DNA from: Gloeophyllum trabeum ATCC 11539
Lineage: Eukaryota > Basidiomycota > Agaricomycetes > Gloeophyllales > Gloeophyllaceae
NCBI RefSeq assembly: GCF_000344685.1
Contig: NW_006920415.1
Location: 595,526 to 618,827, forward strand
DNA: 23,302 bases
Direction of reading: 5' to 3'
In this document: piece after piece, positions 6,388 to 23,302 of the stretch
How the letters are laid out: each line of letters starts with the position of its first letter
Numbering within the stretch: position 1 is the first letter of the stretch
Program-made: the position numbers and the translations under genes
Notes under the pieces: generated by a model
Database searches by the model: none
Told to the model about the DNA's origin: nothing
Seen by the model: only the letters and a program-made list of their open reading frames with translations

Positions 6388-6431
6388 AATCACGTGATGC
6401 CCATAATGAGGCGACGCGTCTGAGACGCGTC
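6388..6431. promoter_or_regulatory. E-box and paired ACGCGT (MCB-like) palindromes upstream of eIF2D
   Basis: An 8-bp palindrome TCACGTGA (near 6389) is followed by two perfect copies of GACGCGTC at 6413-6420 and 6424-6431, three bases apart. ACGCGT is the core of the MluI cell-cycle box bound by Mbp1/Swi4-type factors, and CACGTG is an E-box. They lie about 195-235 bp upstream of the eIF2D start codon. Binding is inferred only from the motifs; they could equally regulate nothing, or belong to the relic on the right. Confidence 0.4.
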
Positions 6432-6432
6432 G

Positions 6433-7100
6433 GTGTTGATACAGCGAGTCTGTGCTTCTCCTACGCTCGTTTGCATGCGAAACCCTCCTGAACCGCCGAA
6501 ATTCATCCTCTCATCTCCTGAGGGCCTACTATGGACTCGCCGCGTCCTTCAACAACTTCTTCCTTTTGATCCTCACGACTACCAGCTCGAAGGGGTATGC
6601 AAGTCACTTGACGGTGTTGATCTCTTCGCGATAACTGCTACGGGCGATGGCAAGACCGGTTATCTATATATGTATATTTTGGTGGTTCTTTACATCAGTT
6701 GTAATCCATCACTCTCTCCGAATGGCATTAAGTTTCCAAAAGACCCTATAATAATTGTAGTGTGCCCTACGAATGGCTTAGAAGAACAGATGGTATGTGA
6801 TGAGCTGTCACAGATCTCCTTCTGCCTGACTTGCGAGTTTCAGGCCTCCAATATGAGCAAATATGGTATCAAGACATTAGCAATTAATTCCAATACAATG
6901 CATGAAGGTGTAAAACGGCACGCGCCGGCGTGTCAATGCTTATGCTGTCACCGGAGCAGCTTTGCCTGAGAGGCTTCAAGACACTTCTCGAACACAGACC
7001 GTTCTGGGAACGGATCGTGGCATTTGGCGTGGGCTTCTGCCCGACAGTCTTTCGCTCAGTGTAGGACCGCTTCTTGGTGCCGGAGTCTTCTCCTGAGGCT
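6433..7100 (+). pseudogene. RecQ-like DEAD/H helicase relic
   Basis: Fragment of the multi-copy RecQ-type helicases common in Agaricomycetes. The first frame holds a Q-motif-like DYQLEGVCKSLDGVDLF, a Walker A variant ATGDGKTGYLYMY and motif Ia VVCPTNGLEEQM. A good 51-bp intron (6793-6843, GTATGT to TTTCAG) then joins QM to ASNMSKYGIKTLAINSNT. Homology continues from 6942 in another frame with LSPEQLCLRGFKTLLEHRPF and ERIVAFGV. The expected DEVH motif II is missing: the text jumps to a diverged FCPTVFRS and a stop. The C-terminal helicase lobe is absent. The frameshift near 6925-6940, the loss of motif II and the truncation mark it as dead. A link to telomere-associated RecQ helicases is only a possibility. 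Confidence 0.72.
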
Positions 7101-8090
7101 GCTTGCATGATGGATAGTAGTGCTATAGTACCTTTGAAACACAAGCTTTAAACCATAAAAAATTATATTTGGGTATTTACATCTGTATTGATCTTATCGT
7201 AGCCCCTCAAGAGCACCACGTTCCCTAGGACAAGTGGTGTACACCATGCAACAGCATCGAGAGCAGGGGAGGAGGCCGTGCGAAGTATCACGTGAAACTG
7301 AAATCCGTGAGCCAGCCAAGGCAGGCGCGACTGGAAGCAGACCGTCACTGGGTACAATACCCATACTGAGCCACCGAGAAAGTGTGAAAGGAACCGGACA
7401 AAGGTCAAATTTTGTTCATAGTGTTGCCTTGCAAAACAAATGAAAGTTCAATGAACAGTGCTGAACAAAGATCATATCCTGTGTCACAATCAAATTTTTG
7501 CGCACTCAAAAGTAGTATTATTCTAATTCATTTCATTCACTGACTGTGCAATGGACAATCATGAAAGAAGTTTGACCTTTGACTGATTATTTTCAAAGTT
7601 TTGTGCATGCTCAATATGGGTGATGTACCCAGTGCATTATATGCCGACTGCCCCCACCTGCCTTATAAGGGAGGCAATATGGTCTGACTTCGGGAGACTA
7701 CCCAGGTCCCAGGCCTAATTAGGCTGGCTCATCTGAACCCCCGGTCAAGCCTAACAAGGCTCAGGATTGCTCGCTGATTGACACCAGCGGTCGTACCGGG
7801 GATCGCGGCAGTCTTACTACAACTAGTATACTATCTATAATACAAAAGACAGTTCCCTGTCCCACAGTGTCATTTGACTTTTGCGGTGATATGCACTGAC
7901 ACACAACAATCACCAAGGACCAAAAGAAATGCACCTAAACCCCGTGATGTGGGTGAAGGCGGTCCGAGACAACTGAGGGGTATTTAATAGTTCGAGGGGG
8001 AAAGGAGGAGTTAAGACGCTATAGGGTAGTCCGTAGGAAGACCTAGAAAAATAAAACAAACGCTTTGACGCCTAAAACAAATGCTAGTTG
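7101..8090. other. Gene-poor stretch with no recognised feature
   Basis: No coding region is supported. A GC-rich block at about 7640-7800 stands out from AT-rich flanks. It contains a perfect 12-bp palindrome, GCCTAATTAGGC (7713-7724), and may be the remains of a repeat whose identity I cannot assign. The rest is of low information to the eye. Confidence 0.4.
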
Positions 8091-8935
8091 ACGCTCCGGA
8101 ATATTTATCTCCGAAGAGTCACAATCAAAGTCGCAAGCAACTACACCTGTCGTAGGATCATGCTCGCGGGGTTAGAAATTGCTAGAGAGACTTGGTTAAT
8201 TTTACTTCGCTATGTAGAACGCACCGGAGATAATTAAACTGACGGCGGAGATAAATCACTCGACGAGTCAGGCCTATTGGCAAAGCTAGGATCGGTTATA
8301 ATTCGCTAAGTTCGACGCTTTCGAACTTCGAGGGTCGCTGAGATTGTAACATTAATTCTCTGAGATGGTGAAGTGCAAAACTTGTTTTTCTGTATGCTAC
8401 TTTGTACAATTTATATGACAGGAATGGCTTTGCAACAGTCCGGAGATAAATAACAAATAAACGCCGCTACCCACAGGATTGCTCAGCACTTGCCGCTGTT
8501 ATACCATACACCGTACGACTCTCTTGCACTCCCACTTGCTCGTCTCAGCCCCTAGAGGTCGCCTCGATGCTCTGCCACCTGGCCCAAGCGGTCCCATCAC
8601 TCCGTGCGACGCGCCGGTCACGTGCTAATTACCTCCGGCCACTTGCTGACTGATGCTGGCCTCATGGTGACTCGTATGCGTCCGCACCTTCGGTATTTTG
8701 ATGGAAACGAGAGGGGGAGTGTGCTGGAGGGTGGGCATGAGGATGACGCCCCTCGATAGAAGCATCCGCGGGCCCCGGAGCTAATTCATCTAAAAGTTGC
8801 ATAGGTTAAGTCACCCCGGAGCTCACGTTTACGGAGATAAATCTCGGAATGGGTCCGTGTACGTCTCGGGATGCTAGGAAGTCCGGAGCTAAATAGAAAA
8901 ATTCTTTTAGAGCCCATAGAAGCCTAGAGGCGTGT
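8091..8935. repeat. Cluster of the short motif CGGAG(A/C)TAA(A/T)T
   Basis: At least seven copies of an 11-bp motif occur in about 800 bp. On the plus strand they are CGGAGATAATT 8225-8235, CGGAGATAAAT 8246-8256, 8441-8451 and 8832-8842, CGGAGCTAATT 8776-8786 and CGGAGCTAAAT 8884-8894. On the minus strand there is one at 8103-8113. A partial copy starts at 8817, and the adjoining inverted repeat carries the related CCGGAGCTTATT (minus, 8949-8960). Clustered short motifs close to a terminus are typical of transposase-binding subterminal repeats in cut-and-paste DNA transposons. No gene is seen here. Confidence 0.65.
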
Positions 8936-9024
8936 GAGTGCTGTGTCGAATAAGCTCCGGGGGGCTTGTACAATGTGCTGAGTCCGCGTTTTCAGGGGTC
9001 AGACGATCCTGAGGCTTATCAGCG
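8936..9024 (+). repeat. Long inverted repeat, left copy
   Basis: This 89-bp segment is the reverse complement of 23214-23302, with 83 of 89 positions identical and no gaps. It includes the stretch GGCTTGTACAATGTGCTGAG. Similarity stops sharply at the inner end after ATCAGCG. The outer end cannot be fixed because the right copy runs off the window. It looks like one arm of the terminal inverted repeats of a large element. Confidence 0.85.
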
Positions 9025-9300
9025 GTAAAGCTTACTGTAAATGGCAAGCTGTGGCATCTCGCGACAGGTAGCTTTACTGCGCCCCCATGCAAACACGTAC
9101 AAATGTACCATATCAAGAAGAATGTCACGTGATGCCGGCAAACGCGGGCTTCCCGCCGCGCGCGTGTGCGGCCGGTTAGAGCATCTTCAAGTCTGGAGGG
9201 TCATATAGATGGGGCAAAATAAATTTTCATTGAAATCTATATAGCTGTGATAATGTGGCTGACAAGGTAGATATAAAAGCCAACAGTAAGGAAAGTTAAT
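9025..9300. other. Short spacer inside the left inverted repeat
   Basis: No gene is seen. It contains the palindrome TCACGTGA near 9125 and an AT-rich stretch. An antisense frame across the repeat (8907-9128) has no recognisable protein content and is not annotated. Confidence 0.35.
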
Positions 9301-9303
9301 AAA

Positions 9304-9315
9304 CCCTAACCCTAA
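9304..9315. repeat. Two telomere-type CCCTAA units
   Basis: CCCTAACCCTAA followed by AAA matches two units of the common fungal telomere repeat (TTAGGG on the minus strand). It lies just past the pol III-type terminator of the tRNA-like relic. Two units can easily arise by chance. Confidence 0.4.
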
Positions 9316-9326
9316 AAGCACAAATC

Positions 9327-9407
9327 AAAAAAAATGCACAGGAAGGAATTGAACTCCAGACATCCTGCACTCAATACATGCCGCATAACCACTACACTAA
9401 GAAAGCG
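9327..9407 (-). ncRNA. tRNA-like pol III relic or SINE head
   Basis: On the minus strand an A box (TAGTGTAGTGG, 9399-9389) and a B box (GAGTTCAATTCC, 9356-9345) have tRNA-like spacing, followed by a run of eight T (9334-9327) that would terminate RNA polymerase III. The A-box region, with a following GTTA, resembles tRNA-Asp/Glu/His genes. Acceptor and T stems pair poorly and no anticodon can be assigned, so it is not a working tRNA. A tRNA-derived SINE or decayed tRNA copy is the best reading. Confidence 0.55.
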
Positions 9408-9409
9408 AT

Positions 9410-10402
9410 ACAAATTTGACGCATCAAAACAATATGATGGCAATGTAATTGGCGTTTACTTAATACGGCTGGGTCCAGTTATTTTTAGTGACGCGGCCGG
9501 AGGGGTCGGAGGTCACATGATATTCTTCTCGAAAAGGTAATATTTGGTCGTGTTTACGCGGGGGTGCAATAGCAAAGACGTCTCATGACTTCGGACACGG
9601 CGGATGGCCTGAGGCCGGTGCTCAACGCTGCTCCTCATGCCAGACTGCGATGATTCGAGCTACAGCCCACCATAAATGTGTCACTACAGACCCAGTGGCT
9701 TATACAACTTGCCTGTAGTTAGTAAACAATGGTATGTCTCCTGGCATAATCCAAGGCTGGAGCCGTTGTCTCGGAATTGACTCTGATGCTGGGCCAGTCT
9801 AAGTGCAGTTCAGGCAGTGGAAACATAACAAAGGTCTTCTTGCTATTTCTTTAGTTACAAAATGGGGAGATACTGTCTCACATGGAGACTCCAAGGTGAC
9901 CACATAGCAGCCTTGAATTGTGGCACATGATACCCTCATCCTCTATAGAGAAGTACCAGGAAACTGAAGGTAGATATGGGAATACCAAGATCCTATTAGC
10001 TGAATCCGGGTATGGTGACTTGCTCCAGATGCCACTTTTGTTCCTCAGTCCATGGCTCTTCATTGAGCTCTCTTATTGTTGCTCACAGCCTGGTGGCCAC
10101 TCTGGACTGCTACTGTAGCCCAACTTACATACACATGGGCATTATAGAACTTACACGGGGGATGATAGCATCCTATAGTCATGTGACACCAAGGGAGCTG
10201 GGGTGGGGGATGTCAGACACTGAGATTAAATATTCTGAGGCTTGCTACAGTCAATGAAGTATGACGGTCCATTTTCCCTAAAAATGGAAATGCTTATACA
10301 ACACAACCAAATATGCACACATTCACTGAACACGCACATAACTTGTTGACTGCACATATCTAGGCTCCTACAGCGAACACAGCTACTCTTGGGGTACCAT
10401 CG
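9410..10402. other. Non-coding stretch between the tRNA-like relic and the BTB gene
   Basis: No recognisable gene on either strand; open frames are under 70 codons with no family resemblance. A small hairpin near 10269-10287 has arms CCATTTT and AAAATGG. The right end should hold the 3' UTR of the BTB gene. Confidence 0.4.
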
Positions 10403-10534
10403 CTAGGCCTCATCATCCTCAAGAGCAGTTGTTGCTGCCTTACCCTTGTCCCTGCTCCCATATGCTGCCACGATCTGCTCCACTGCCCCCTCAAAGTACT
10501 CGTCGGCCTTCGTCATCACTCCTGTCTGCTTCAC

Positions 10535-11412
10535 CTAGTCAACATTCTCCTTCTGACAATTCCGACACATCCCTGGGATCGATACCTCTTCCAGCATCCC
10601 CAAGATCTCTCTACCTGACTTTCCTGAGTCAGGGTGAAGCAGGTGCTTTGCGACTCCCTGCCACCACTTCCAAATCCAGGCTTCAGTGCATCTGCCTGGC
10701 CGGAAGCAGTGGACGCTCTCGATAGGATTGGAAGGATAGAAGGTGAGGATGTTCAGGTGGTCTCTGATCGCAGTGTGGGCTTGAGAGAGGATGTAAAAGG
10801 CGTCAGGTCCCATGAGGTGAGCGATCTCCCTCGAGATATCTTTGAATGGTATTTTCATCAACGCCCGAAAGGCAGGCTCCACCCATTCAGTAACATGGTG
10901 TGCACATCCGAGGTGAAACTGAAGAGCTGAGGTCAGGTCTGCCCTCTTCGACAGCTGGTCGATGGCATAGGTTCTTCCATCATCGATTTCTAGCATTGTT
11001 GACAGCTTCAGGATCACAATCAGGTTGTCCAGGCTTGGAGGAGCAGCTGTACGTCTTGTTTTTCCATTAACTGTGATTTTCTGCTGGAACGACTAACACG
11101 TACCCCCTAAACATGTACTCAAGCAGGATGTCAAACTCCTTCTGCTCTATTGTTGCTGGCAGCACCATCAGATTCTCATCCGAGCTTCCCTCAACTTCTA
11201 TTCCAACCGGTGATGGCATCATCAGCATATTTCTGAAGACTGTAGAGCGTTCGGCGAGAAGGCTAAGATGCAGGTTATATAGAGTGTTCCCCAGCTACAC
11301 TACGTCTTTAGTATATGTCCAATGGTTAATAAAAAATCCCAGTAGACTCTACCTGCATTCTGAATGACCCGTCCTTGTAATAAAAGTATGGGTGGTGAGT
11401 TTTAGCCGACAT
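10535..11412 (-). CDS. BTB/POZ-domain protein of the Agaricomycete type
   Basis: Three exons (11353-11412, 11104-11294, 10535-11054) give 256 aa. The N-terminus, MSAKTHHPYFYYKDGSFRMQ, runs into the BTB fold (TLYNLHLSLLAERSTVFRNM, then LPATIEQKEFDILLEYMF). The helical region LDNLIVILKLSTMLEIDDGR, AIDQLSKR and WVEPAFRALMKIPFKDIS follows. This layout is common in large Agaricomycete BTB families, whose function is mostly unknown (protein-protein interaction). Introns are 58 and 49 bp; the second acceptor (AACAAG) was chosen to keep the frame. Its start codon lies 100 bp from the divergent integrase start. The stop TAG at 10535-10537 is followed in the same frame by 43 more protein-like codons ending at TAG 10403-10405, so the C-terminus may have been lost to a nonsense change. 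Confidence 0.78.
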
Positions 11413-11512
11413 AGCAGGAATGAGCAGTGTCACAGTTTCTCAGCCACTGCCCAATCTGGTATGTCACACTTCCAATCTGTCCTGAATCCAACAAACATCT
11501 TATGTGCACTCT
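11413..11512. promoter_or_regulatory. 100-bp divergent promoter between the BTB and integrase genes
   Basis: The BTB start (ATG at 11410-11412, minus) and integrase start (ATG at 11513-11515, plus) are separated by only 100 bp. Both must use overlapping upstream sequence if both are transcribed from here. No clear TATA box is seen. Confidence 0.4.
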
Positions 11513-12628
11513 ATGGATACACCCCATCCTGCTGTCTTCCCTCCTCTGCCTCCTTCTGTTGATGGCACAGTCTGGTCTGCTAATGTTCTTCGGGCCCATC
11601 AAATTCTTCACGATGCGTATGCCCGTGCCTCGGACTGTTACGACAGGAAGATGGAGACCCTCTACAGCTCTGTATCCACTCGGAACGGATTCTGAAAAGG
11701 ATGATCCCTATTCTAGAGGCTTTAGATCAAGAGGTCACTGATGAGCATTGGAGCTCTGGATGTGCTCACGCGCTGGCGAAGATTACTGTAGACTTGGAAT
11801 GGGCAGCTTTCGCAGCGGATGGCGTGTACGTGTATCACCATATAGCTGCTAGAGTTCATGCTTACCCTAGTCAGTGAGCAAGCCAAGGTCCACCACTTCA
11901 ATCCTGTCACCATCATCCGGACTGGGTGCCATGGGCGTCCTCGGAAGGTTATCAATCCCACCTGGCTCAATGAAGCAATGTCTACACACCATAAAAACAG
12001 CATCCAGAAGTTTGCTGATCTCCTTGGCATGCATCGAAATGCTGTGAGAAAGCAGCTGAAGCTCTATGGTGTCTACCAGCGATTCTCTGACATCTCGGAC
12101 AATGACATTGATCTGCTTGTTCGACTCTACAAGAAACATCGACCGATGTCTGGTTTGCGCTATGTAATTGGCTTCCTGAAGAGTCATGGGCTGAGAGTCC
12201 AGAAGCATTGTGTATGTACTTCACTCCGACGTATTGATGGATTGGGTCAAGTGCTCCGTAACCATGAAGCTATTGATCGGCGAGAGTACAATGTCCCTCG
12301 TCCTAACTATCTGTGGCATATGGATGGCTACCATAAGCTCATACAGTGGGGTGTTGTTGTTCATGGCATTGTGGATGGATTCTGTCGGAGTGTGAGTGCC
12401 CTTTGACTGATCGGGTTTTACTAGAGCTGAGATTTGCCCCAAGGTTGTCGGAATACAGGTCAACACAAATAATCGTGCCTCCACAGTTCTCAACCTGTTT
12501 CTCGATGCAGTTGCAGAGTATGGGCTACCATCCAGGGTTCGAGGAGATCGTGGAGGCGAGAATTTAGAGGTCTGTGTATGGATGATCAAGTATCGTGGAC
12601 CAAACCGGGCATCATTCATGTGGGGTAG
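11513..12628 (+). pseudogene. DDE integrase-core protein, 5' half (split gene)
   Basis: First half of an rve/RNase H-fold integrase-core protein found in Basidiomycota and some animals, probably a transposase. Segments: N-terminal helical part from ATG 11513 (VLRAHQILHDAYARASDCYD); frame change near 11665-11685, after which ERILKRMIPILEALDQEV continues to 11825; intron 11826-11874; exon 11875-12391 with a DNA-binding-like part (GRPRKVINPTWLNEAM, LLGMHRNAVRKQLKLYGV) and the first catalytic Asp in LWHMDGYHKLIQW; intron 12392-12443; exon 12444-12628 with [14 protein letters not shown] and the second Asp in VRGDRGGEN. It stops at a GTAAGT donor, and the next exon lies 7.7 kb downstream at 20348. 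The frameshift and the insertion make it a pseudogene, although the intron insertion alone might still be spliced out. Confidence 0.82.
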
Positions 12629-12629
12629 G

Positions 12630-12634
12630 TAAGT
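12630..12634. repeat. Left TAAGT direct repeat at the insertion junction
   Basis: TAAGT forms part of the intron donor GTAAGT and recurs at 20306-20310 where native intron sequence resumes. Joining the flanks over one copy gives a 43-bp intron (GTAAGTAGTC...CCAAG) that restores the integrase frame (phase 2 to phase 2). It is either a target-site duplication or a recombination core. Confidence 0.65.
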
Positions 12635-14600
12635 CACTTTAATCGCGAACATTTAAGTTACCAGTTTAGCGCCCTAAATTGAGGGTCAAGTGCTGTCAAG
12701 GTCGCGCTTGGCGTGACCCCGGGATCCCGGCACGATGCGACCGTGCCTGCCTCTGAGACGAAAATAGCGACACGTCCTGCGAGCTTGTCAGCCGGCGTTC
12801 GTCGGTCTGGTTCATGCTCTTCACGTCGTCGCTGTCGTTCCCGAGGAGCCCTAACCCTATCGCGGCTGGTCGTCCTTCGTACGTGGTTGGGCTTTCTGCG
12901 AGACTGAGAAGATGCTATGCACAATGTGTTGCATGCATCTGTGATTAGATGAGTTTATATTCGTGTCTCTACACCCTTCTGATCTTGAATTCTCCGTTAG
13001 ACAGCAACTCAGATGCAGATTGCTCGCGCGTCTTGCAGAACGTGCGGTGCGTAGACCCGCGTTATTGACATTCGTCGCCGCCCCCCCCCTCCCGCCCGCT
13101 CCTCCTCGAATGCACCTTCTTCCAGTCCGCGAGGAATCACTCCCTCCCCTTCTCGTTCCCCTGGCGCACATGCCCCCTTCACCCACAGAATGAAGTAGCA
13201 AATACGTTCTGTCCAGTACCACCATCCATAACTCCCGCAAATGCTGCATACAGAGAACGGGTCGCGCGCTAAATCAGTGCGCCTGTCTCCTCCGCGTCTG
13301 ACAAGTCGCAGCGCGCCGACGGGGCAAGCTGAGAATATCTCGGATCCACCCAGCCCAAGTCATTCACAGGCTCCAGTTGCTTAGGTGAGCATATTCAGAA
13401 GATTGTGAGTTAAGACCCGGCGGCTGAAGTTGTACAGCGAGTTAGGCCCTTTGCTGGACACAGCGGCAAGATGCATGACCACGGGTTCACAGACGTTCGG
13501 GGGCGGTTCGTCAACGGGAGGCGGCGGTGCGTTCAGCACGCAAACAGCTTCTCCTGCGTAGCGTGCTGGTGGCGTTCACGATACTGTGAGGTAAGTCTGT
13601 ACAACGCTCTACTGTCTTGCTGCTGCTGACATCTGGATGCATAACTGATGGCAAACGTGCCATCTTGCTACGAGGGGCGTCTGGAGGTGCAAGGGATATC
13701 CCCATTGGCGACACCCCATTTCCTGTCGGGCCCTTGGACACAGGACGTGAGTAATGCATTGTCAGTTAGTCGGAGATTTCCGGGGACTGCCCATGTTTAA
13801 GGGACATGTTTACCGATGCGACGTGTCATGTACTATTTCGTAGATGCTGCATACTAGCAGTAGCATTGCTCAATACAGTGAATGTTGCCTTGAGATACAG
13901 CACCTGCTGCGCGCCGCTAACTGCATAATAAAGCATCTACTATAATAATAATGAACTGAACACATATGTATGCGCGTTGCTGTGCGCCTCCGCGTTTGCA
14001 TAAATCAGGCTCACGTGCATCTTAAATTCACGTGGATTTAAGTTAAATGTAAGTGTCTGCCAGTTTTACCCCCTCTTACTGGCTCTTACCGCTTAAATTG
14101 CAAGCCGGCAACGCTAGGATGCACTGAGAAATCAATCCATGGGGTAGATATCTTGGTAGAACTGTAGCACATCAATAAATACACCTGATGAATGCATTCC
14201 GAAATATCCACAGTCATAATCAGCTTTCTTGCAAGCCACAAAAGCATGCGAAATCAAGTTCCAGCCACCGGGAGCGGAGTACCGAGACACGATTTGAGTC
14301 GGAGTTTGAAATCAGGTTGAACCTGGTCTCGTCGCCGACTGCAACACTAGTGTCGACGGATATGCTCGCGAGCTGAACACCTTGATGTACCAGTTCACAT
14401 TCTCCCTGTCAACCATCTCTGCATATACCCTGGCTACTGGAATCCTAGCGCCCTTGCAGAACCATTCATTTGATATGTCGACTAATATGATACTGATATT
14501 ATTTTCGAAGCTCTTAAAAGCCACTCCCTCCTGCTATCCACCAGCACGCCAGATTAGATCATACCGGATTCACAGGTGAAGTTTTCTGCAGGCTTTGCAC
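12635..14600. other. Left part of the insertion, no recognised gene
   Basis: Open frames on both strands are short and unlike known families. Visible features are the palindrome CCGGGATCCCGG at 12719-12730, a C-rich tract near 13080, and a foldback CTTAAAT...ATTTAAG near 14020-14041. A minus frame at 14312-14524 has a protein-like look but no recognised motif. A plus-strand stretch near 13650-13745 looks somewhat protein-like (GGARDIPIGDTPFPVGPLDTG), also without a match. Confidence 0.4.
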
Positions 14601-15771
14601 TACGCACATGTCACTGAACTCTACGTTGTTTTCTCGCGAACCGTGGGAACCCTATCTTAGGGTTACACACATGCAGAACTTGATTGCACAGAGGATTTGC
14701 GAGGAGGCGAGGAGGGCGCTGGGGGCGACATGTAGGAAAATGATAGCTGGTACGTTGCTCGAGTGCCCTCGCGACCCGGCTGGCCTGGTCCCTGGAACCC
14801 CGAACTTGGGGATCCGCTTCCATAGCCAGCTTACCCGCGCCGGGCTTATCGCGCCATACGCATGCTAACAATTCCTAGGTTGCAACCCTACTCCCCGCTA
14901 AACGCGGCCGCTAAGCGCAGACATCCACCCCCACACATTGAGCCGTATCAGCCACCTGTCGAACATTCCCGCCCAAATTCACCCAGGTATGTGAAGCCTA
15001 AGCCCTCTTCAATGCCGTTCGCTGACCGTGACGTAGCGCCCCTGCAGGCCCATTTCACGAGCGCTAGTCGCGCTCGACGCCATCTTCCCCGCTAACAGAT
15101 TGTACATCTTACGACATCCGCCGCACGCAACTTCATACCTCCGCCACGTTCGCCGCCCTCTACCTGCTTCAATGCCGCAACGTTTGCTTCCCCGGCCCGG
15201 CCAGGGCTGGCTTGAAGGGCTCAGTCCAGTGATACAGATTCGGTTCACGAGGTTGGTAAGGAGCACGACGCGACGCCAACCCGTCAGCGACGTCCGATGC
15301 GTCGACGCGTCCGTCGGAGCCCGATTTAACGCGCGACTTGCGCTCACGTCCGCAATCACTTGGCGATGATAAGATCACCTAGCTATGCCGCGCTATCCAC
15401 GCAATGCTTCGGGGCCTTCTGCTTCGCCAACACATCCTTACTCTGCGTATACACTCGCTGAATCGCCGTGCCACAGCCCTCTATTGACGCCTTCCCACCC
15501 CGTTTCCCAACCAAGTCCTCCCCTAGAACATGGCTGCCGTCCACGGTTCCGTCATCGCAGCCCATCTGTCCCTGTTCAGGATGTCCCACCCGATGCTCTT
15601 CCGCTCGACGTCTGCCGCCATTAAGGTGAACCGGCCAGCCACGCGTCAGCGAGCATCAGCCGCCCGTCGGGCCCACCAGCACAAACTAACCCGAGCGGTA
15701 GCAAGGTAAGCAGAAAATGAACTGTTGATTGAAGGCTGACCGCTGACCGTGGCGTAGCCCACCCCTGCAGA
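14601..15771 (+). other. Proline-rich region, possibly upstream exons of the cyclin pseudogene
   Basis: Several plus-strand frames are proline/serine-rich, for example HIEPYQPPVEHSRPNSPRY near 14930 and SPLLTPSHPVSQPSPP near 15470, as in the disordered N-termini of Pcl-type cyclins. A segment near 15018-15085, beginning CGCTGACCGTGACGTAGC, is repeated with about 75-80% identity near 15740-15805, just before the cyclin box, showing an old segmental duplication about 720 bp apart. No single frame or convincing splice chain connects them. Confidence 0.4.
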
Positions 15772-16457
15772 CCCTTTTACAGGCACGAGTCGACCGCGAC
15801 GCTATGTGCGCGGTTCATCACCCACCTGTTTGTGTGCCCCGACTACCCGCCACCCTCGACGACGTCGTCGCCTTCGGCGCCCTCGCCCCTGTTGGCGATT
15901 CATCGCCTACACCCTCCATTGCGCCGGACTACACTCAGCCATCATATTTGCGGGGATCTACCTTCTCCAACGCCTAAAAGCCCGCTTTCCCACCGCGCGC
16001 GGCTCGTCGGGCGACCGACTCTTCATTTCTGCTTCCATGATTGTGTCGAAGGTCATCTGCGACGATACGTACTCGAACAAGTCGTGGTGCATCATGGGTC
16101 AGGGTATGTTTGTGTTGCGGGAGATCAATCAAATGGCGGGTGATGCGCAGCTGCCTCGATTGGGAGTTGAACATCGAGCCGTTGCTCTTGAAGGAGTTCA
16201 AAGCAAAGGTGAAGAAGGACTTTGCCGGCCCGGGACCCTACCCGACGTACACCGTGCCGCGACCGTTGTTGTCGCAGCCCGCCCAGCCTGTCATCCCCGA
16301 TGTCAACCCACCACCACTCCCGCCCTTCATCCACGCCACCCGGAAAGCCGCCTCAAGCTCTCGTCAAACCCTCTCCCGCCGCCACCCGTCCCCGTCCTCA
16401 TCCCCTATGCTCCTCGCCCATGTCCTCTTCACCGCCAATGCCGCCAGATGGGGGTGA
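15772..16457 (+). pseudogene. Pho85-type (Pcl/Pho80-like) cyclin pseudogene, copy 1
   Basis: Cyclin-box homology runs through three frames. Segment 1 (15772-15897) has FYRHESTATLCARFITHLF. Segment 2, from 15899, has FIAYTLHCAGLHSAIIFAGI, LKARFPTARGSSGDRLFISA and SKVICDDTYSNKSW. Segment 3 (16143-16457) has CLDWELNIEPLLLKEFKAKV and GPGPYPTYTVP. A two-base loss separates segments 1 and 2 and a second frame change near 16138 separates 2 and 3, so it cannot make a full cyclin. Intact relatives bind Pho85-type cyclin-dependent kinases. It lies inside the recombinase-bearing insertion, 1 kb upstream of the recombinase gene on the same strand, and may be captured host DNA. Confidence 0.78.
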
Positions 16458-16484
16458 TATCATCATCAACTAGACGCTTGAGCT

Positions 16485-16964
16485 CTCAACGTTGAGCTGT
16501 CGTTCCTGAAGGAGTATGAGGCCAAGGTCAAGATGGATTCCGATGGCCCGTGGCCCTATCCGACCTACACTGTGCCACCATCACTGTCATCGCAGCCCGC
16601 CTGGTGTGTTGTCCCCAACGTCAACGTGCCGCCGCTTCCCCGTTCACTCAAATTCCTCATCAAATCCCTTGGCACCACCGCCCATCCCCACCTCCCTATG
16701 AGAAACTGTATCCCATCTGCTGCCGCTCACTCCCGATACCCTGTCTTGTATTCCGAATCCTCCGCGCCCGCGTATTCCTTGCCGCCGATGCCTCCCAATA
16801 CAGGTAATATCTTCATGTTTGACGCCAAGGAGAAGATTCGCACCGTTGTGGTTGAGAAAACACTCCCGAAGTCAAAGATCGCGCGCGATGCATTCACGTT
16901 CGCGTCCGCTGCTTCAGCGGTCTTGAGGGGTCGATTGTTGTGTTTTAACATGAGCATGCATTGA
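16485..16964 (+). pseudogene. Cyclin pseudogene, tandem copy 2 of the C-terminal part
   Basis: The C-terminal cyclin segment is repeated 318 bp downstream in one open frame. LNVELSFLKEYEAKVKMDSD and GPWPYPTYTVPPSLSSQPAW parallel LNIEPLLLKEFKAKVKKDF and GPGPYPTYTVPRPLLSQPAQ of copy 1. This copy continues further, with SLPPMPPNTGNIFMFDAKEK and RTVVVEKTLPKSKI, to a stop at 16962-16964. The divergence shows that the duplication is not recent. It lacks the cyclin box itself. Confidence 0.7.
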
Positions 16965-17181
16965 TATATATAAATGATGTATAGTACATGTTCTACTATG
17001 TCAAGATGCAATATATGTTCTAGGAAGTGAAGGGGTAATACAGCTACTGTCACGAAGGTATCGAGATCGCGGCATATGTCAGTGATCGGACAGCCATGTT
17101 TCACATTACAGTGGGTGGCTCTGCAGGCAAAAATGGCATGGGTCTCCTGCCCTTCATCTCCGTCCCCTCCCCTTTATTGCT

Positions 17182-19604
17182 ATGGCTGCCGCTAAGGCAA
17201 AAGCTGCTGGAAAGAAGGCAAAATCCAACTTGCCGTCCACACCTGCAACCCTTGCCAAACTTCAGGTTCTGGGGAAAGAGAAAACAGATGAGTATTTACA
17301 TGCTCGGAATACGACCATAAAGTATCAGCAGCAGGCAAACAATGCACAGAAATGGCTTGCAAGCTTCTTCGCTGAGGAGAAGGCGGCAGAGAGGGAAGGG
17401 CTGGTTGCCGGGCTTGTGCAACCGGGGAAAGGGGAGTCCCTGGCAGGTCTAGAGAAAACAGAATCAGCTTCGCTCTTTAGGGACCCTGAGTTCCAGAGAG
17501 CATTAGACGGACCACCAGGACAATATACACCGACAGCGATCTCAATGTACCTTGTGTATAAATGCTTTGAGCAAGATCTGAAGAACTCTACAGCAGTGCA
17601 GATACACGCCGCACTGATCCGTGAATATGACCAGATGTACGTTTACGCCCTGCTTTGAAGTACTATCGATTGTATCAGCTGATGTGTACCCCAGGGACGC
17701 AGATACGTACCGGGGGAGATGGCGCTATGACGAGTCCCGCCGCATGTGGGTAGGGAATCCGGTGCGATCTGCTAAAGTCGAAGACGTGATGCTATCAATC
17801 AAGCATAAAGATGGGATTGATGGCGGCGATCGAAAGCACTCACTTGCCATGTCGAAGAAATGCATAGAGCAGCTGTATGCATGGTCAAGCGCACTCTGCC
17901 CACCACAGACATGGTCGCATCTGCCGGAAGACCTCGTGGTAGTGGAAAGGCAGGCCATCCACTTGCGGTTTCGTGCACGTGCATCTCTGGGCTTCACGCT
18001 CTGGACAAGGTAGTACTGAGATCCTGAGCTTTGCAAAGCTATCACGTACTCACCGGGATATCCAGGAACTGCGAGACAACACGCTTACAGTATCAGCACT
18101 TCGAGTTCAACGACGCGCGTCGGAAGGGAGGGTCTCCGCTCGACCCTCCCCATTTCGAAGTCAATCTGACGAATCGGAAGAACTGGCAACGCAAGCAGGA
18201 TAAGAATCAGTCGGTGTGCGGTGCGTCTGGCCTTCGCAATGGTGTGAATGGGCTGACTCACATTGAACCTCGCGAATAGGACATAACTACAAAATCTACC
18301 CCCAGCCAAAGACCCCCACGACCGATATGTATACGCACCTGCTTGATTGGTTCGACTTCTACGAGCTGCTGCTGGGAAGAGCGCTGCAGCCCGAGGACTA
18401 CGCCTTCCCATTCATCGGCACTGATTGCAAAGTCCACCCTCATCGCGCGATGTCCTCCGACTTGGTACAGAAGGAGTTGAACGAGTTTGCTATGCTAGCT
18501 GGGGTGCGCGGGGCGGGATCATTCACGACACACTGTTATCGGAGAGGTGGTGCGCAGTACAGATTCATGTTCGCGCCGATTGGAGAGCGATGGACGCTTG
18601 CTCGTATTCGATGGTGGGGTGGCTGGGCCGAGAAAGAGCATGTGCGTCGAGACTTCTCTGATCATGCTTCTGATCATATCTAACCGGCGGCTTTGTTCCA
18701 GCGCGATACATTGATCAGATACCTACTTGATGAGTTGTACAATTATGAAGAGGATCATTCAGACGCTCTATGTCCGATATCGCGCGAAGCCGAGCACTCG
18801 CTGATGGGTGAGGCTGCACTGCAACGCCCTGCCTCTGTCGCTGAGCTGGGCGAATTCCTCACACGCATCAAAGAGGAGAATCCGGTACTGATCCAACAGG
18901 CGGTTGCTTCATCACTAGCTGCCGTTATCCCTCTGTTTGCAGCACCTCCTACTACTCCGGCACCTCAAATGGTATCAGCACCGGTGCAGAGCCTTGCGGG
19001 CAGGTGTGGCATGGCAATTCAAACATTGCCTTTTGCACCAACCTGTGCTAGTTCTGCGAGTCAGCTGCCCACCCCTCGACGTGATGCGCTGGTCTCGCAT
19101 CCCCTAAATCTTCACTTCCCAACCGTGCCTCTAGCCTCACCACAGGTCACCTCCTACCAGCCATTGCCGCCGCCGGCACCCACTCGCACAAATCCCGCCT
19201 GGATAATCCCCGCCGTATCTGGTAAAGAGGCCTGGCGCAAGATCATCCAGGACTGGGAGACCGCAGACGCTTCGCGCTCTCTTTCGATCCCTTTGCGCGA
19301 TTGGACGACGGAACAAATCAAGCAGGGTGGTGCGTCGATTTACAAGCAGCGAGCGTTAATTGCAACCGAGTTCATCGATACGTGAGTGCTATATTCACCG
19401 GTACGGTCACACGTTTTGATGAACGGACACAGCTACGATCGTGACGAAGCAAAGTTCATCGCCGCATACCCTGAGCATACGCAGGGTGTGGTACGCTTGC
19501 TGCACGCCATCCGAATAGCGCGTGCAGTCCGCGGTCAGTGCAAGCAACGGCGCAGCAAGAACGGTACGCCGGATGAAAGGGCAAGACGTTTCGGGTCGGC
19601 GTGA
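17182..19604 (+). CDS. Crypton-like tyrosine recombinase with GCR1_C-like C-terminus
   Basis: Six exons (17182-17636, 17695-18009, 18066-18220, 18280-18641, 18702-19381, 19433-19604) join in frame to 712 aa with introns of 51-60 bp. The start ATG follows a C/T-rich promoter-like tract. A basic N-terminus and a helical core-binding part (about 40-235) precede the catalytic domain. Catalytic residues are Arg257 (LWTRNCE, split by an intron), H393-x-x-R396 (TTHCYRRGG), a Trp-rich block RWWGGWAE at the third-His/Trp position, and Tyr436 (DTLIRYLLDEL); a Lys in TNRKNWQRKQ suits the beta-hairpin lysine. A Pro-rich linker follows (about 500-605). The C-terminal region, with WRKIIQDWE, RALIATEFIDTYDRDEAKF and AAYPEHTQG, resembles the GCR1_C DNA-binding domain reported in fungal Cryptons. 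No frameshift or stop is seen, so it may be active. It is the likely integrase/excisionase of the surrounding insertion. Confidence 0.85.
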
Positions 19605-20305
19605 AGCCATGCAAGGGGGGTTTGATGCTATTATGATGCTATTATGCTACTCATGGGCTAATGCATGTAACATACGATTTGCATAGTTTATTCAATAACT
19701 CCATAGTTTATACAGTAAAATACATGCTCCTATACAATATATGATGTGCCCAACGAAAGGGTGGGTCGAGAGCGGCAAGCAGCAACACAAGATGTCTGCG
19801 AGAAGCAAGAGAAGAGAGTAATATCATGGACAGACATCGCACCTTTACAACAATGCAATGCAATACACACAGAAATATAAAACCCATTCCGCGCAGCATA
19901 TTGAAGCAGGCATCCGGGGATAGTGGAGGGGAGCGGCTTCGCGACCTAGGACTCGAAGTAAAGCAGACAACACGTCCGCAGCTGCAGGCGTTACGAACGA
20001 ACAACCACTCAGCGAGAACGATAAGTCCCTAGCGCAAGCCGGTTGGGGCGATCGTTCGAACCAGTGACGAGCGAGACAGCGGGTGGACGTCGAAAGGGAC
20101 GGATGAGGCGGACGGGACGCCCAGAGCCCAAACCGATCGAGCAAGACCGCACGCGGCGGCAAGTCGACATCTCGACATCCGCGCACGCATGACCGCTCAG
20201 GCACGAGGGGGCGCCTAAACCCCGGCGGGTGCCGGTCCCACGCCTGCCACGCGCGCCTGCCGCCTAAGGCAGGACCGTGGGAGGAACGCCTTAATTTCCT
20301 CAGGA
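19605..20305. other. Right part of the insertion, 3' of the recombinase
   Basis: No gene is recognised. Just after the recombinase stop are two abutting 11-mers GATGCTATTAT (19624-19645) and a direct repeat CATAGTTTAT (19682-19691, 19702-19711), in an AT-rich stretch likely to hold the polyadenylation region. From about 20040 the sequence becomes strongly GC-rich up to the hairpins at the end. Confidence 0.45.
20222..20282. repeat. Two consecutive hairpins near the right end of the insertion
   Basis: The first hairpin has CCGGC (20222-20226) paired with GCCGG (20231-20235) around GGGT. The second is compound: outer arms TCCCACG (20236-20242) and CGTGGGA (20276-20282) enclose an inner hairpin CCTGCC (20256-20261) and GGCAGG (20268-20273) with loop GCCTAA. 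They end 23 bp before the TAAGT junction. They could form part of the recombinase binding site. Confidence 0.6.
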
Positions 20306-20310
20306 TAAGT
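20306..20310. repeat. Right TAAGT direct repeat at the insertion junction
   Basis: Second copy of TAAGT. It is followed by AGTCTTCC..., a TTTGAC branch-like sequence and the CCAAG acceptor of the interrupted integrase intron, whose next exon begins at 20348. Confidence 0.65.
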
Positions 20311-20347
20311 AGTCTTCCTTTGACTCTCATCCAAAGAAGTGACCAAG

Positions 20348-21186
20348 AGTATACAGCTCAACTTGGAACACTCGCATTGAATGTCTTTGGGTTGAAGTCG
20401 GATCTCAATTTGGCAGGTAATGTCGGGCTTTCTTTACTTGATTAGAACATCTTCATCGGCTGAATCCAAAAGACCCTGGTCATCTGTGGCTACTGCACAC
20501 CCTATTTCTTCACAATATCCGTGACGACTGTGCGAAATTTCAACAAGACTGGAACCACCACCCGATATCGGGAGAAGCAGACCAAACCCCTTTGGTGAGT
20601 GGCTATGAGTATTCCAAGATCACTTTATATATGTTCTTGCTCTAGGATCTATGGTTTCTTGGTCAATTGGAGCATGGAGTCTACGACGATTTCCAGGATG
20701 TCCATCCTGATATCTTAAATTCAGTACTATGGTGCCGACTCTGCCCATGAAGTTGTCCATGATGGTCAGACTGGAGCTGGTCACTCGGACGATGAAGATG
20801 ACTCCGATGAAGACCTTGACAGCCACATTGCCCATGAGCAAGTGCACCATATACGTCATGACCCTGTTGCCGTTCCCGCAGCTGATAGTCCTTTCACTCC
20901 CAAAGTCACAACTGCCTTCTTGGCTGCCTTACAGGAGCTCCGAGACAAGCAAGTTGTTCCTGAGGGATTTGGGGTTCATGATGCTGAGTGGGATGGAGAT
21001 GGGTATCCTGAGTTCCAGTCCATCCGGAGTGGTCATAAGTACATAGATATCCCTCTCCCATTTGCAGTTTGGCAGCCTCGAGCAGTCTCATGGTCACAGG
21101 GACTTAGTCTGTACGCTCACTTTATGGACTTGTATGGAGAGGGTAGCCAGGTGCGGTTAGATGAGAATAGTGGCTCTGAAGCTTAA
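20348..21186 (+). pseudogene. DDE integrase-core protein, 3' half (split gene)
   Basis: Continuation of the gene at 11513-12628. Exon 20348-20594 starts with VYSSTWNTRIECLWVEVGSQ, supplying the catalytic Glu (NTRIE; relatives usually have Arg where Cys stands). Reading on in frame meets TAA (20418-20420) and TGA (20439-20441) within a block whose other codons still read RAFFT and LEHLHRLNPKDPGHLWLLHT. The stops replace a Gln and an Arg expected in relatives. Intron 20595-20645 leads to LWFLGQLEHGVYDDF and HPDILN. One extra T at about 20721 then shifts the frame to YYGADSAHE, an acidic linker, and the C-terminal FLAALQELRDKQVVPEGFGV to the stop at 21184-21186. Two nonsense codons and a frameshift show that the gene is dead. 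Confidence 0.82.
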
Positions 21187-21222
21187 GTGCAATAGTGATC
21201 CTTCAATTAATATACTGAACTA

Positions 21223-22635
21223 CTATGACGTTGAAGAGACTTCGGACAATCGAGGCAGTAAGTTAAGACCTTCCTGCCACCGAGCCTTGTTGGCTTCATC
21301 AGCCGCCTTCTTGCCAACTTCCTTGGCAAATGTCCCAGCAGGCTTGAACCCAAAGTCCACCCACCGAAATAATCCTCCAGCCGTCCATTGCACAAAAGAT
21401 AGCCTTTCCTCTCCAGGCTGTACAGGTATGTTTGAGTGGTGTAGGAGAGCTGATGGTAAAAATATGGTAGAACCGGGAGGAAACTCAATCACCAGCTTAA
21501 GGTCCCACAGTACTAAGTGGCCACCTTTCTTTGGATCAAAATTACCCAAGGCTGTAACACTACACCATCCGAAAGCAAGGTTCAAATGGTCAGTATGAAC
21601 CCACGATCGAACCTTGCCTCCCAAATTGAAAGCATAACATGCAAACACAGACTTTGCAAAGTGTCGCTCAAGCCTGGGGTCAGTTTCACATAGGTAGTTG
21701 AGTATGTTGACATAGTAGCTGAATAGACGGGGGGCATAGAGATCAAAGGCCTCTGCAGGGTCTCTGTTAGCAAGGCGTTAAAGGGAGCATGAAGGCACAA
21801 TGTACGGTTCGCAAAACCTACAATCGATTGGATGAAAGAGTTGTCAAGCAGTGAGCGGATGATGAGGAGATTGATCACACCATTGATTCGGATATTGCCT
21901 GGTGCCTTTTATTGCATCAATACCAGTTCACGGCAATAGAGAAGATGTGACTGACCTTTCGTCCACCTCCATATGATATACCTGTGGTGGCCACAGGGAA
22001 AACTCCCCAGCGGTGAGCCTTCTTCTTGTCCGAGCAGTTGAACTTCTTGCCAGCAGTGAGCATGGCCTCGGAAGCTCCTTGACAAACTTCATCCCAGCCC
22101 TCACGGGGAGCACCAGCAAGGACTACCAGGACCCGGCCATCACAATCTGGGTCAGCAATGGCCTTGGGTGTTCTACAGGGCTCACGTCAAAGGTCAGTAA
22201 TAGCTGAAACTATAGATAGACTTACACTCCATCCCATTCAACGTACTGCATGCCCTTGATCACAGGATCATCCAGCCTGTATTCCCAGCCTGCATCCGGG
22301 GTTGCCTTCTGGTTAACACCCTGGTAGCCGGACTTCCATCTGTGAAACACCTGCTGGTCGCCTTTCATGGGAACAGCATGCACGCCAGCCTTGCTCTTCA
22401 GCGAGACCTCTTTCTGTTTAAGACTATGCATGCCTTGTGACCCAAGTAGAGTCGACTTGGCTTCATCCTCCCTCTTCCGGCACTTCTTCTTCTGCTGGAG
22501 GCGATGATATTCTTGATGCCGCGCAGTGCCCGGGAGGCTAGAAAGACTATTTACCTACTTGTAGAACCCTTGCCACTCGTTTACCTTACGAGGAATCAGA
22601 CCTGGCGTGCCGCGCAGCGCCGAATACTTCCCAAG
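21223..22635 (-). CDS. TET/JBP-like 2-oxoglutarate/Fe(II) dioxygenase (5' end unresolved)
   Basis: Fungal TET/JBP family (Tet_JBP domain), enzymes that oxidise 5-methylcytosine or thymine in DNA. Exons: 22226 up to the 5' end, 21956-22172, 21806-21905 and 21223-21752; introns of 50-53 bp fit perfectly. Upstream text includes MQYVEWDGVTPKAIADPDCD, RVLVVLAGAPREGWDEV and TTGISYGGGRKAPGNIRING. The double-stranded beta-helix has the Fe-binding His and Asp in SWVHTDHLNLAFGW, then FDPKKGGHLVLWDLKLVIEF, PPGSTIFLPSALLHHSN (distal His) and the 2-oxoglutarate-binding Arg in EERLSFVQWTAGGLFRW. All catalytic residues are present. The 5' part is doubtful: an in-frame TAG at 22555-22557 separates VNEWQGFYK from LPGTARHQEYHRLQQ, and no start codon is evident before a TAA at 22636-22638. 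Related genes are linked to KDZ transposons in basidiomycetes; here the neighbour is an rve-type integrase. Confidence 0.75.
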
Positions 22636-22638
22636 TTA

Positions 22639-23213
22639 TAGCACTAATATGTGGAGTCCGGGTCCCACCAATATATTCTGATTTTATCCGACTTTTTGCG
22701 CATTTTTTGGAGCCACCCAGTGCCTGGATGATCAGCCAGCCTATTCTTAGCCCCCCAGGCTATTCCCGGGGCACCAGATCTAGCCCCGATCCCTGCCTGC
22801 CTGCCGGGATGCCGGGGCAGGCCATTCAAGCTCAGCCCGGCTCATGGCAGGCAGCTTGCCACCTGAAATCCCATTACATTAGGCCTGGACAATTGTCCCG
22901 AAACATTGTAAAGGAGCACACGAGTGTTGTCCAGGTTTAATGTAATACTACTACAGCATCAGGTGGAGTGCTCACCATGCATCTTTGAGAAAGCGCCGTC
23001 AAAGGCACAACCCTTGGGACCAAGGATGAGAGACAGCAGGTACAGTGTTTTATACAGGGAACTGTTGGTCTGTGCGTGGGTGGGTGCAGCGAGGCAAAAG
23101 CGTCAGGAAACACGGAGCAGACATGTCAACAAACACGTCAGTGAGAGCGCCACAGGCGTGAGTCCACGTCATGTGCCACTGAGGCATCCGTTTCTCCTAA
23201 GTCCGCACTTCCG
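22639..23213. other. Right flank of the dioxygenase gene up to the inverted repeat
   Basis: No gene is supported. The stretch 22730-22860 is rich in CCCGG/GCAGG words with small overlapping palindromes. The 74-bp foldback element lies at 22873-22946. Possible 5' exons of the dioxygenase gene may be here but cannot be identified. Confidence 0.4.
22873..22946. repeat. Short foldback (MITE-like) element
   Basis: Arms at 22873-22892 and 22927-22946 are inverted repeats of 20 bp (ATTACATTAGGCCTGGACAA against the reverse complement ATTACATTAAACCTGGACAA), 18 of 20 identical. The two differences are transitions. The loop is 34 bp. No target duplication is evident. Confidence 0.65.
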
Positions 23214-23302
23214 CGCTGATAAGCCTCAGGATTGTCTGACCCCTGAAAACGCAGACTCAGCACATTGTACAAGCCCTCTGGAGCTTATTCGACACGGCGC
23301 TC
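23214..23302 (-). repeat. Long inverted repeat, right copy (cut by the window end)
   Basis: Reverse complement of 8936-9024, with six mismatches in 89 bp, all transitions. The match still holds at the last base of the window, so the repeat probably continues outside. It carries the related motif TGGAGCTTATT near 23280. Confidence 0.85.

Follow-up and report, generated by a model that had tools for sequence, protein, structure and literature searches.

A putative IS3EU-type transposon carrying a TET/JBP-like dioxygenase gene in Gloeophyllum trabeum

The locus considered here raises the question of whether a transposon with an rve-type transposase carries its own TET/JBP-like dioxygenase, and where such an element begins and ends. 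The window is a stretch of 23,302 nucleotides from Gloeophyllum trabeum ATCC 11539, corresponding to C6:595526-618827 in a genome of 35.5 Mb and 34 contigs (designated C with a number). An earlier note on this DNA described two inverted repeats of at least 89 bp as the boundaries of a unit in which a TET/JBP dioxygenase is combined with an rve-type integrase-core protein and a BTB gene. All three genes are present between these repeats. The window very probably contains a DNA transposon of the IS3EU type in a damaged state. The cassette of this family is composed of the BTB-like gene, the transposase, the TET gene and a fourth gene, named Z here. The ends of this transposon are different from those proposed.

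The element family in the genome

The searches of the genome with the TET and transposase exons of the window gave 14 and 8 matches, respectively, which define 10 TET loci, 5 loci of the window transposase family and 3 loci of a second transposase family. The search with the rva_4 profile (PF24764) gave 22 matches and added a lone partial match at C20:319098. Three further loci, on C4, C6 and C32, carry the BTB-like gene, the DD35E rve (rva_4) transposase, the TET gene and gene Z. The C4 and C6 elements share the same gene order: terminal inverted repeat (TIR), BTB-like gene (reverse), transposase (forward), TET (reverse), Z (forward) and TIR. The C32 element consists of the same genes, but with TET on the opposite strand. 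In the element at 1.64 Mb of C7, TET is missing, and the BTB gene and transposase are accompanied by a weak Z-like match.

The element ends were located by self-comparison and a motif scan. The C4 element (C4:2444553-2453908, 9356 bp) is flanked by CCATTA on both sides, and its right end has one mismatch to the motif. The C6 element (C6:873515-883280, 9766 bp) has a perfect TIR of 30 bp and the flanks AAAGCC and ATAGCC, and the TET-less C7 element (C7:1636614-1642563, 5950 bp) has a TIR of 21 bp with GGGCGA on both sides. The inverted termini of the complete elements read TATGACGG or TATGCTGG, with TATG...CATA at the C4, C6 and C7 elements. The 6-bp target-site duplication (TSD) is exact in two of the three elements in which both ends are present (C4 and C7), and five of six bases agree in C6. 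On C32, a contig of 10,541 bases, the left end is located at 561 with one mismatch; no properly facing right end was identified there, and an end-like motif at 10249 faces the same way as the left end. Single hits of the TIR pattern mean little, with 25 hits in the search and 14 in the reversed control. Thus far, the proposal that the three genes travel together in one transposon is borne out by elements bounded by TIRs and TSDs. A separate pair of inverted ends, TATGRCGTTCCGTYTGCAC, was observed 6.8 kb apart at C13:327072-333875, and possibly represents a sister element family.

The identification of the partner as an rve-type enzyme, and not a KDZ transposase, also holds. The transposase model of the C6 element (593 amino acids) matches PF24764 with an E-value of 2.6e-63 and rve with 8.4e-07, the latter with bits below the cut-off. 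In this model the catalytic triad is formed by D254, D311 and E347, and 35 residues separate D311 from E347 (D-D-35-E). A KDZ transposase as a hidden partner was rejected, as none of the 11 PF18758 matches lies within 100 kb of a TET locus on the same contig. Among the best 120 of 524 transposase relatives, nearly all of the named sources are, as recognised from the names, Agaricomycetes; P0226 (Rhizophagus) and P0189 (filed under Salix) are among the exceptions. Six long relatives chosen by hand (P0140, P0142, P0143, P0163, P0193 and P0197) continue, by eye, into a Z-like part, which was also matched by BLAST in P0142, P0143, P0193 and P0197; P0140 and P0163, used as queries, match the Z region of the C7 element. 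No fusion of TET or BTB to the transposase was found among 240 proteins. The BTB-like part of the C4 element has a UniRef homologue, 100% identical over 94% of the length, with a name beginning 'BTB domain-cont'. Pfam found nothing in this homologue or in the BTB open reading frame of the window, and its BTB profile reaches the C6 model with an E-value of 0.077, below the cut-off.

The proposed mechanism has two parts. First, the TATGNNGGTCC-like ends would be bound by the transposase, which would then integrate the element at a target staggered by 6 bp, in the manner of related rve enzymes. Second, the TET protein would oxidise 5-methylcytosine (5mC) on the element and counter silencing by methylation. 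The BTB-like gene and Z are further genes of the element.

The dioxygenase and its exchange between elements

The TET-type chemistry of the dioxygenase can be inferred from the catalytic residues, the fold and an Asn predicted to contact 5mC. Among 61 aligned homologues, H173 and H226 are invariant, and D175 and R237 occur in at least 90%. The position H+5 is Asn (N178) in 61 of 61, and C184 is invariant in the same set. Asn at H+5 together with HxD was present in all 115 homologues with the motif, with five of 120 lacking the motif itself. The window, C4 and C6 copies have Asn and Cys at the H+5 and H+11 positions, assuming no gap before +11. The Pfam profile Tet_JBP (PF12851) matches 17 of the 61 homologues at E<=0.01. 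In the structure comparison, performed with the homologue P0007, CcTet is the best match, and a clear gap separates CcTet, NgTET1 and TET2, at the top of the ranking, from the rest.

An alternative is that the substrate of the dioxygenase is N6-methyladenine, RNA or protein, and that the enzyme is not a 5mC eraser. The identity to CcTet is only 11-15% in the structural alignments, Asp337 of CcTet corresponds to Cys, and CMD1, a TET relative with another product, scores like FTO and AlkB. The ranking of CcTet, NgTET1 and TET2 speaks against another substrate, as does the constancy of the H+5 Asn, which in TET2 corresponds to a residue, Asn1387, described as bonding 5mC (PMC11040006). The alternative is unlikely, although it retains more weight than the other rival explanations discussed below.

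The elements do not seem to share one history of their TET genes. In the full-length transposase tree, the window copy pairs with C32 (support 100/99) and C6 with C4 (96/93), and a grouping of C6, C4 and the window without C32 is rejected (0.0079). Plain identity of the transposase gives C32 a different neighbour, namely C6 (72%); the window copy, the branch of which is long, reaches 68%. The BTB tree, built from five rows and containing an outgroup on a very long branch, also pairs the window with C32 (92/95). The TET tree joins C32 to the solo copy on C1 (100/99), which fills 49% of the columns. Holding the TET genes of the window and C32 together is rejected (approximately unbiased test, p-AU 3.2e-07), and so are the pairing of C6 with C32 (9.2e-06) and a single clade of TET from all four elements (0.0022). 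An earlier comparison over a 173-codon exon, with C32 nearest to C6 (85%), and a tree of short pieces, in which the four elements were not resolved, give way to the full-length transposase tree.

The simplest reading of these trees would be a replacement of TET in the C32 element. The inverted orientation of the C32 TET and the conflict between its tree and that of its transposase suggest an exchange of TET between elements of one family. Hidden paralogy, an inversion with another history, or misassembly of the short contig could also produce this conflict. As a more tentative proposal, which we consider possible rather than probable, Agaricomycetes would have one more class of TET carried by transposons, perhaps the fourth. 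It would have a TET2-like 5mC pocket (HxDxxN) and act as a swappable anti-silencing cassette of IS3EU, missing from C7 and, in C32, flipped and with a history unlike that of the adjoining transposase and BTB gene. The presence of TET-bearing and TET-less relatives in one genome (C4 and C6 versus C7) offers a natural test of the effect of TET on transposon methylation and activity.

The window copy and its surroundings

In the window, the left terminus of the transposon is located at 10260-10292 (plus strand); it begins with TATGACGGTCCATTTTCCC and matches the ends of the other copies. A scan of positions 20001-23302 for the right terminus gave no match to the end motif at two or fewer mismatches, except a chance-like one at 22370. 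The flanking DNA fetched to the left and right of the window reads N, over 3.97 kb on the right side. The BTB-like gene occupies approximately 10412-11290 (minus strand), with the C-terminal part at 10412-11092 and a BTB-like N-terminal exon, assigned by eye, at about 11100-11290. The 5′ part of the transposase gene (11513-12629, plus strand), found by tblastn with the C6 transposase and matching rva_4 (PF24764), contains a helix-turn-helix-like region and the first and second catalytic Asp. The 3′ part (20355-21165, plus strand) contains the catalytic Glu region and the C-terminus, with internal stops. The TET/JBP-like gene (21229-22542, minus strand) matches residues 128-516 of the C4 model and has the HxD...H...R residues; its first exon, encoding the N-terminus, was not found in the window, and neither was gene Z.

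The two parts of the transposase gene are separated by a nested insertion of 7.7 kb (12632-20353), unmentioned in the earlier note. The C4 element aligns across this region, and its positions 2455 and 2499, 44 bases apart, correspond to window positions 12631 and 20354. From this jump it follows that 7.7 kb was inserted in the transposase gene. Because the gene is split, the window copy is presumably not autonomous. The insert shows no terminal repeats, only short internal direct repeats. A gene within it (17086-19385, plus strand) resembles, by eye, a tyrosine recombinase of the Crypton-like type; Pfam gives DUF3435 alone, with an E-value of 0.043, below the cut-off. Rfam gave no match at gathering thresholds.

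Several observations weigh against the reading of the window as a copy of a TET-bearing IS3EU-type transposon. The right end of its element is not seen, with N in the flank. Both ends are seen in two TET-bearing copies and one TET-less copy only; the duplication of the C6 element is imperfect, and the two ends of the C4 element differ by one base in the 11-base motif. The placement in IS3EU is based on features, namely the termini, target duplication and transposase, which fit that superfamily. The genome search with Pfam Tet_JBP reaches none of the 10 TET loci, the C4 TET has neither a Pfam hit nor a hit among PDB sequences, and the window TET exon gives a sub-threshold match to 2OG-FeII_Oxy_3 alone (E 0.00041). 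The ratios of nonsynonymous to synonymous differences (pN/pS) are 0.25-0.48 between TET genes, 0.11-0.43 between transposase genes and 0.36-0.50 in three BTB comparisons, and give a rough estimate of selection, as pS is saturated in most pairs; the BTB row of the window was dropped here, with no frame open over the stretch taken. Finally, TET genes also occur elsewhere, as the flanking DNA fetched at five of the 10 loci contains no rva_4 transposase (C12:947232-948777, C1:4653-5481, C15:19684-20570, C4:482862-484390 and C19:338106-339131).

Three further observations concern the TET loci and profiles. The C12 locus is enclosed by a 32-bp inverted repeat 10.8 kb wide. The sole place in the genome reached by Pfam Tet_JBP is C26:13566-13778, with an E-value of 5.5e-5, below the cut-off. 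The TET profile gives three weak hits among PDB sequences, none of them TET, FTO or AlkB. In the second rva_4 family (two loci on C11 and one at C7:1.795 Mb), for which TIRs were not found, TET fragments adjoin one of the three transposases in convergent orientation: at C7:1792420-1795998 (L017), two tandem TET fragments face the transposase.

The TET loci that lack a transposase in the DNA read, together with the window, itself a nest of insertions, would also be expected if the genes were neighbours merely through transposon nesting in an island rich in transposable elements, with TET not a cargo. This explanation is very improbable. The C4 and C6 elements appear to be old copies, because they share only 54% identity in the TET protein and 72% in the transposase, and yet they keep the gene order and strands within TIRs and TSDs. 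Moreover, the BTB gene, transposase and Z-like part stay together without TET at C7.

The reading of the 89-bp arms as the TIRs of one 14.4-kb transposon has practically no probability left. In its favour, the genes lie between inverted arms with 93% complementarity. It is rejected by the homology of the left arm, which runs about 1 kb outward and ends at the inner edge. In addition, no arm occurs at the other copies of the cassette in the DNA fetched, and the cassette is bounded by TIRs and TSDs of its own, with the left terminus at 10260, 1.2 kb inside the left arm.

The arms themselves (8936-9024 and 23214-23302, 89 nt; self-BLAST E 3.3e-32) are real, as the earlier note stated. The genome-wide search for the arm gave 131 first-look candidates; 40 of these were scored, and 41 matches are listed. 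The left arm was compared with 38 records, namely 37 fetched loci, oriented by the arm, and the right arm of the window, which has no outward flank; homology was sampled every 50 nt. About 285 nt outward were matched in 35 of the 38 records and about 1 kb in 26-27. At 27 nt inward none of the 38 matched, and one record matches again about 530 nt inward. Because homology extends outward and not directly inward, the arm forms the inner end of a dispersed repeat of 1.14 kb (7883-9024, plus strand). This repeat lies outside the transposon and is unrelated to it. Six repeat copies align with window positions 7881/7884-9021/9026 at 87-91% identity. The right arm (minus strand) is taken as the end of a second, opposite repeat copy, the remainder of which would fall in the N sequence.

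With 131 copies (the first-look candidates) scattered at random, approximately 1.7 suitably facing arm pairs within 14.4 kb are expected. The co-occurrence proposed in the earlier note was right for the genes, found together at other loci, and wrong for the arms, not found in the fetched DNA of the four other loci of the transposon family. A second, convergent arm within the 2.5 kb read was present at four of the 37 fetched loci (L044, L050, L059 and L064); these pairs are too close together to hold the cassette, and the reading of the arms as ends of a short element was rejected. A second arm in other orientations occurs at L033 and L049, and 31 of the 37 loci have a single arm. Nearby, a shorter dispersed repeat of about 130 bp lies at 9066-9197, with 24 genome matches listed at 82-97%, and upstream of the 1.14-kb repeat an open frame at 6424-6969 resembles a DEAD helicase (E 0.0032, below the cut-off).

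Comparison with known systems

IS3EU/GingerRoot elements in general have TA..TA ends, usually a 6-bp TSD, and an IS3-like DDE transposase, as in Gloeophyllum; TET, BTB and Z genes are unmentioned in the available text of that description (Kojima 2023, PMC10045372). TET-bearing IS3EU elements have been described from seven species of Pucciniales and from Tuber indicum, all with TET between the transposase and an alpha-kinase gene (Kojima 2025, PMC12730594). The TET-bearing lineages given there for Agaricomycotina are Kyakuja, Zisupton, EnSpm, Plavaka and Helitron2, from five orders. The main text of that paper lists no IS3EU among them and contains no word beginning with Gloeophyll-, and a Gloeophyllum entry in its supplement or in Repbase is possible. 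A 2026 review (PMC13297926) cites Kojima 2025 for transposon-borne TET, without the word IS3EU in its main text. The suggestion that such an element may be undescribed is therefore too broad for the kind of element, known from the rusts and Tuber indicum, and stands, as far as this main text goes, for IS3EU in Agaricomycotina.

Compared with the Kyakuja/Zisupton (KDZ) elements, the Gloeophyllum element likewise carries a TET/JBP dioxygenase on a transposon in Agaricomycetes (PMC12730594), but its transposase belongs to another superfamily, and it has TIRs and a 6-bp TSD, whereas the Kyakuja of Laccaria is described with no TIR and 7 bp. The TET protein differs from the AG and PE classes; a further type, PU, is defined by grouping with the TET sequences of rusts. 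In the AG type (CcTet-like), H+5 is Gly (or Ser) and H+11 is Asp, unlike the Gloeophyllum TET, in which Asn and Cys stand against Gly331 and Asp337 of CcTet (PMC11040006), and the HxD motif separates it from the PE type, with HxE (PMC12730594).

The closest likeness is to the TET-bearing IS3EU elements of the rusts and Tuber indicum, which share the rve/IS3-like transposase, the TA..TA ends, the 6-bp TSD and the TET gene beside the transposase inside the element (PMC12730594). The differences are the host class or order, the ends, which read TATGNNGG in Gloeophyllum and TAYGG..CCRTA in the rust-type elements, and the accessory genes, BTB-like and Z, apparently in place of the alpha-kinase gene (PMC12730594). 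Because TET-bearing IS3EU elements are published from rusts and a truffle, and none from Agaricomycotina in that main text, the kind of element is already known, and what is new lies in the order of the host, in the accessory genes and in a TET that differs from the AG and PE types. On this placement, the capture of TET by IS3EU-type transposons would extend to Gloeophyllales, with a TET that belongs neither to the AG nor to the PE class.

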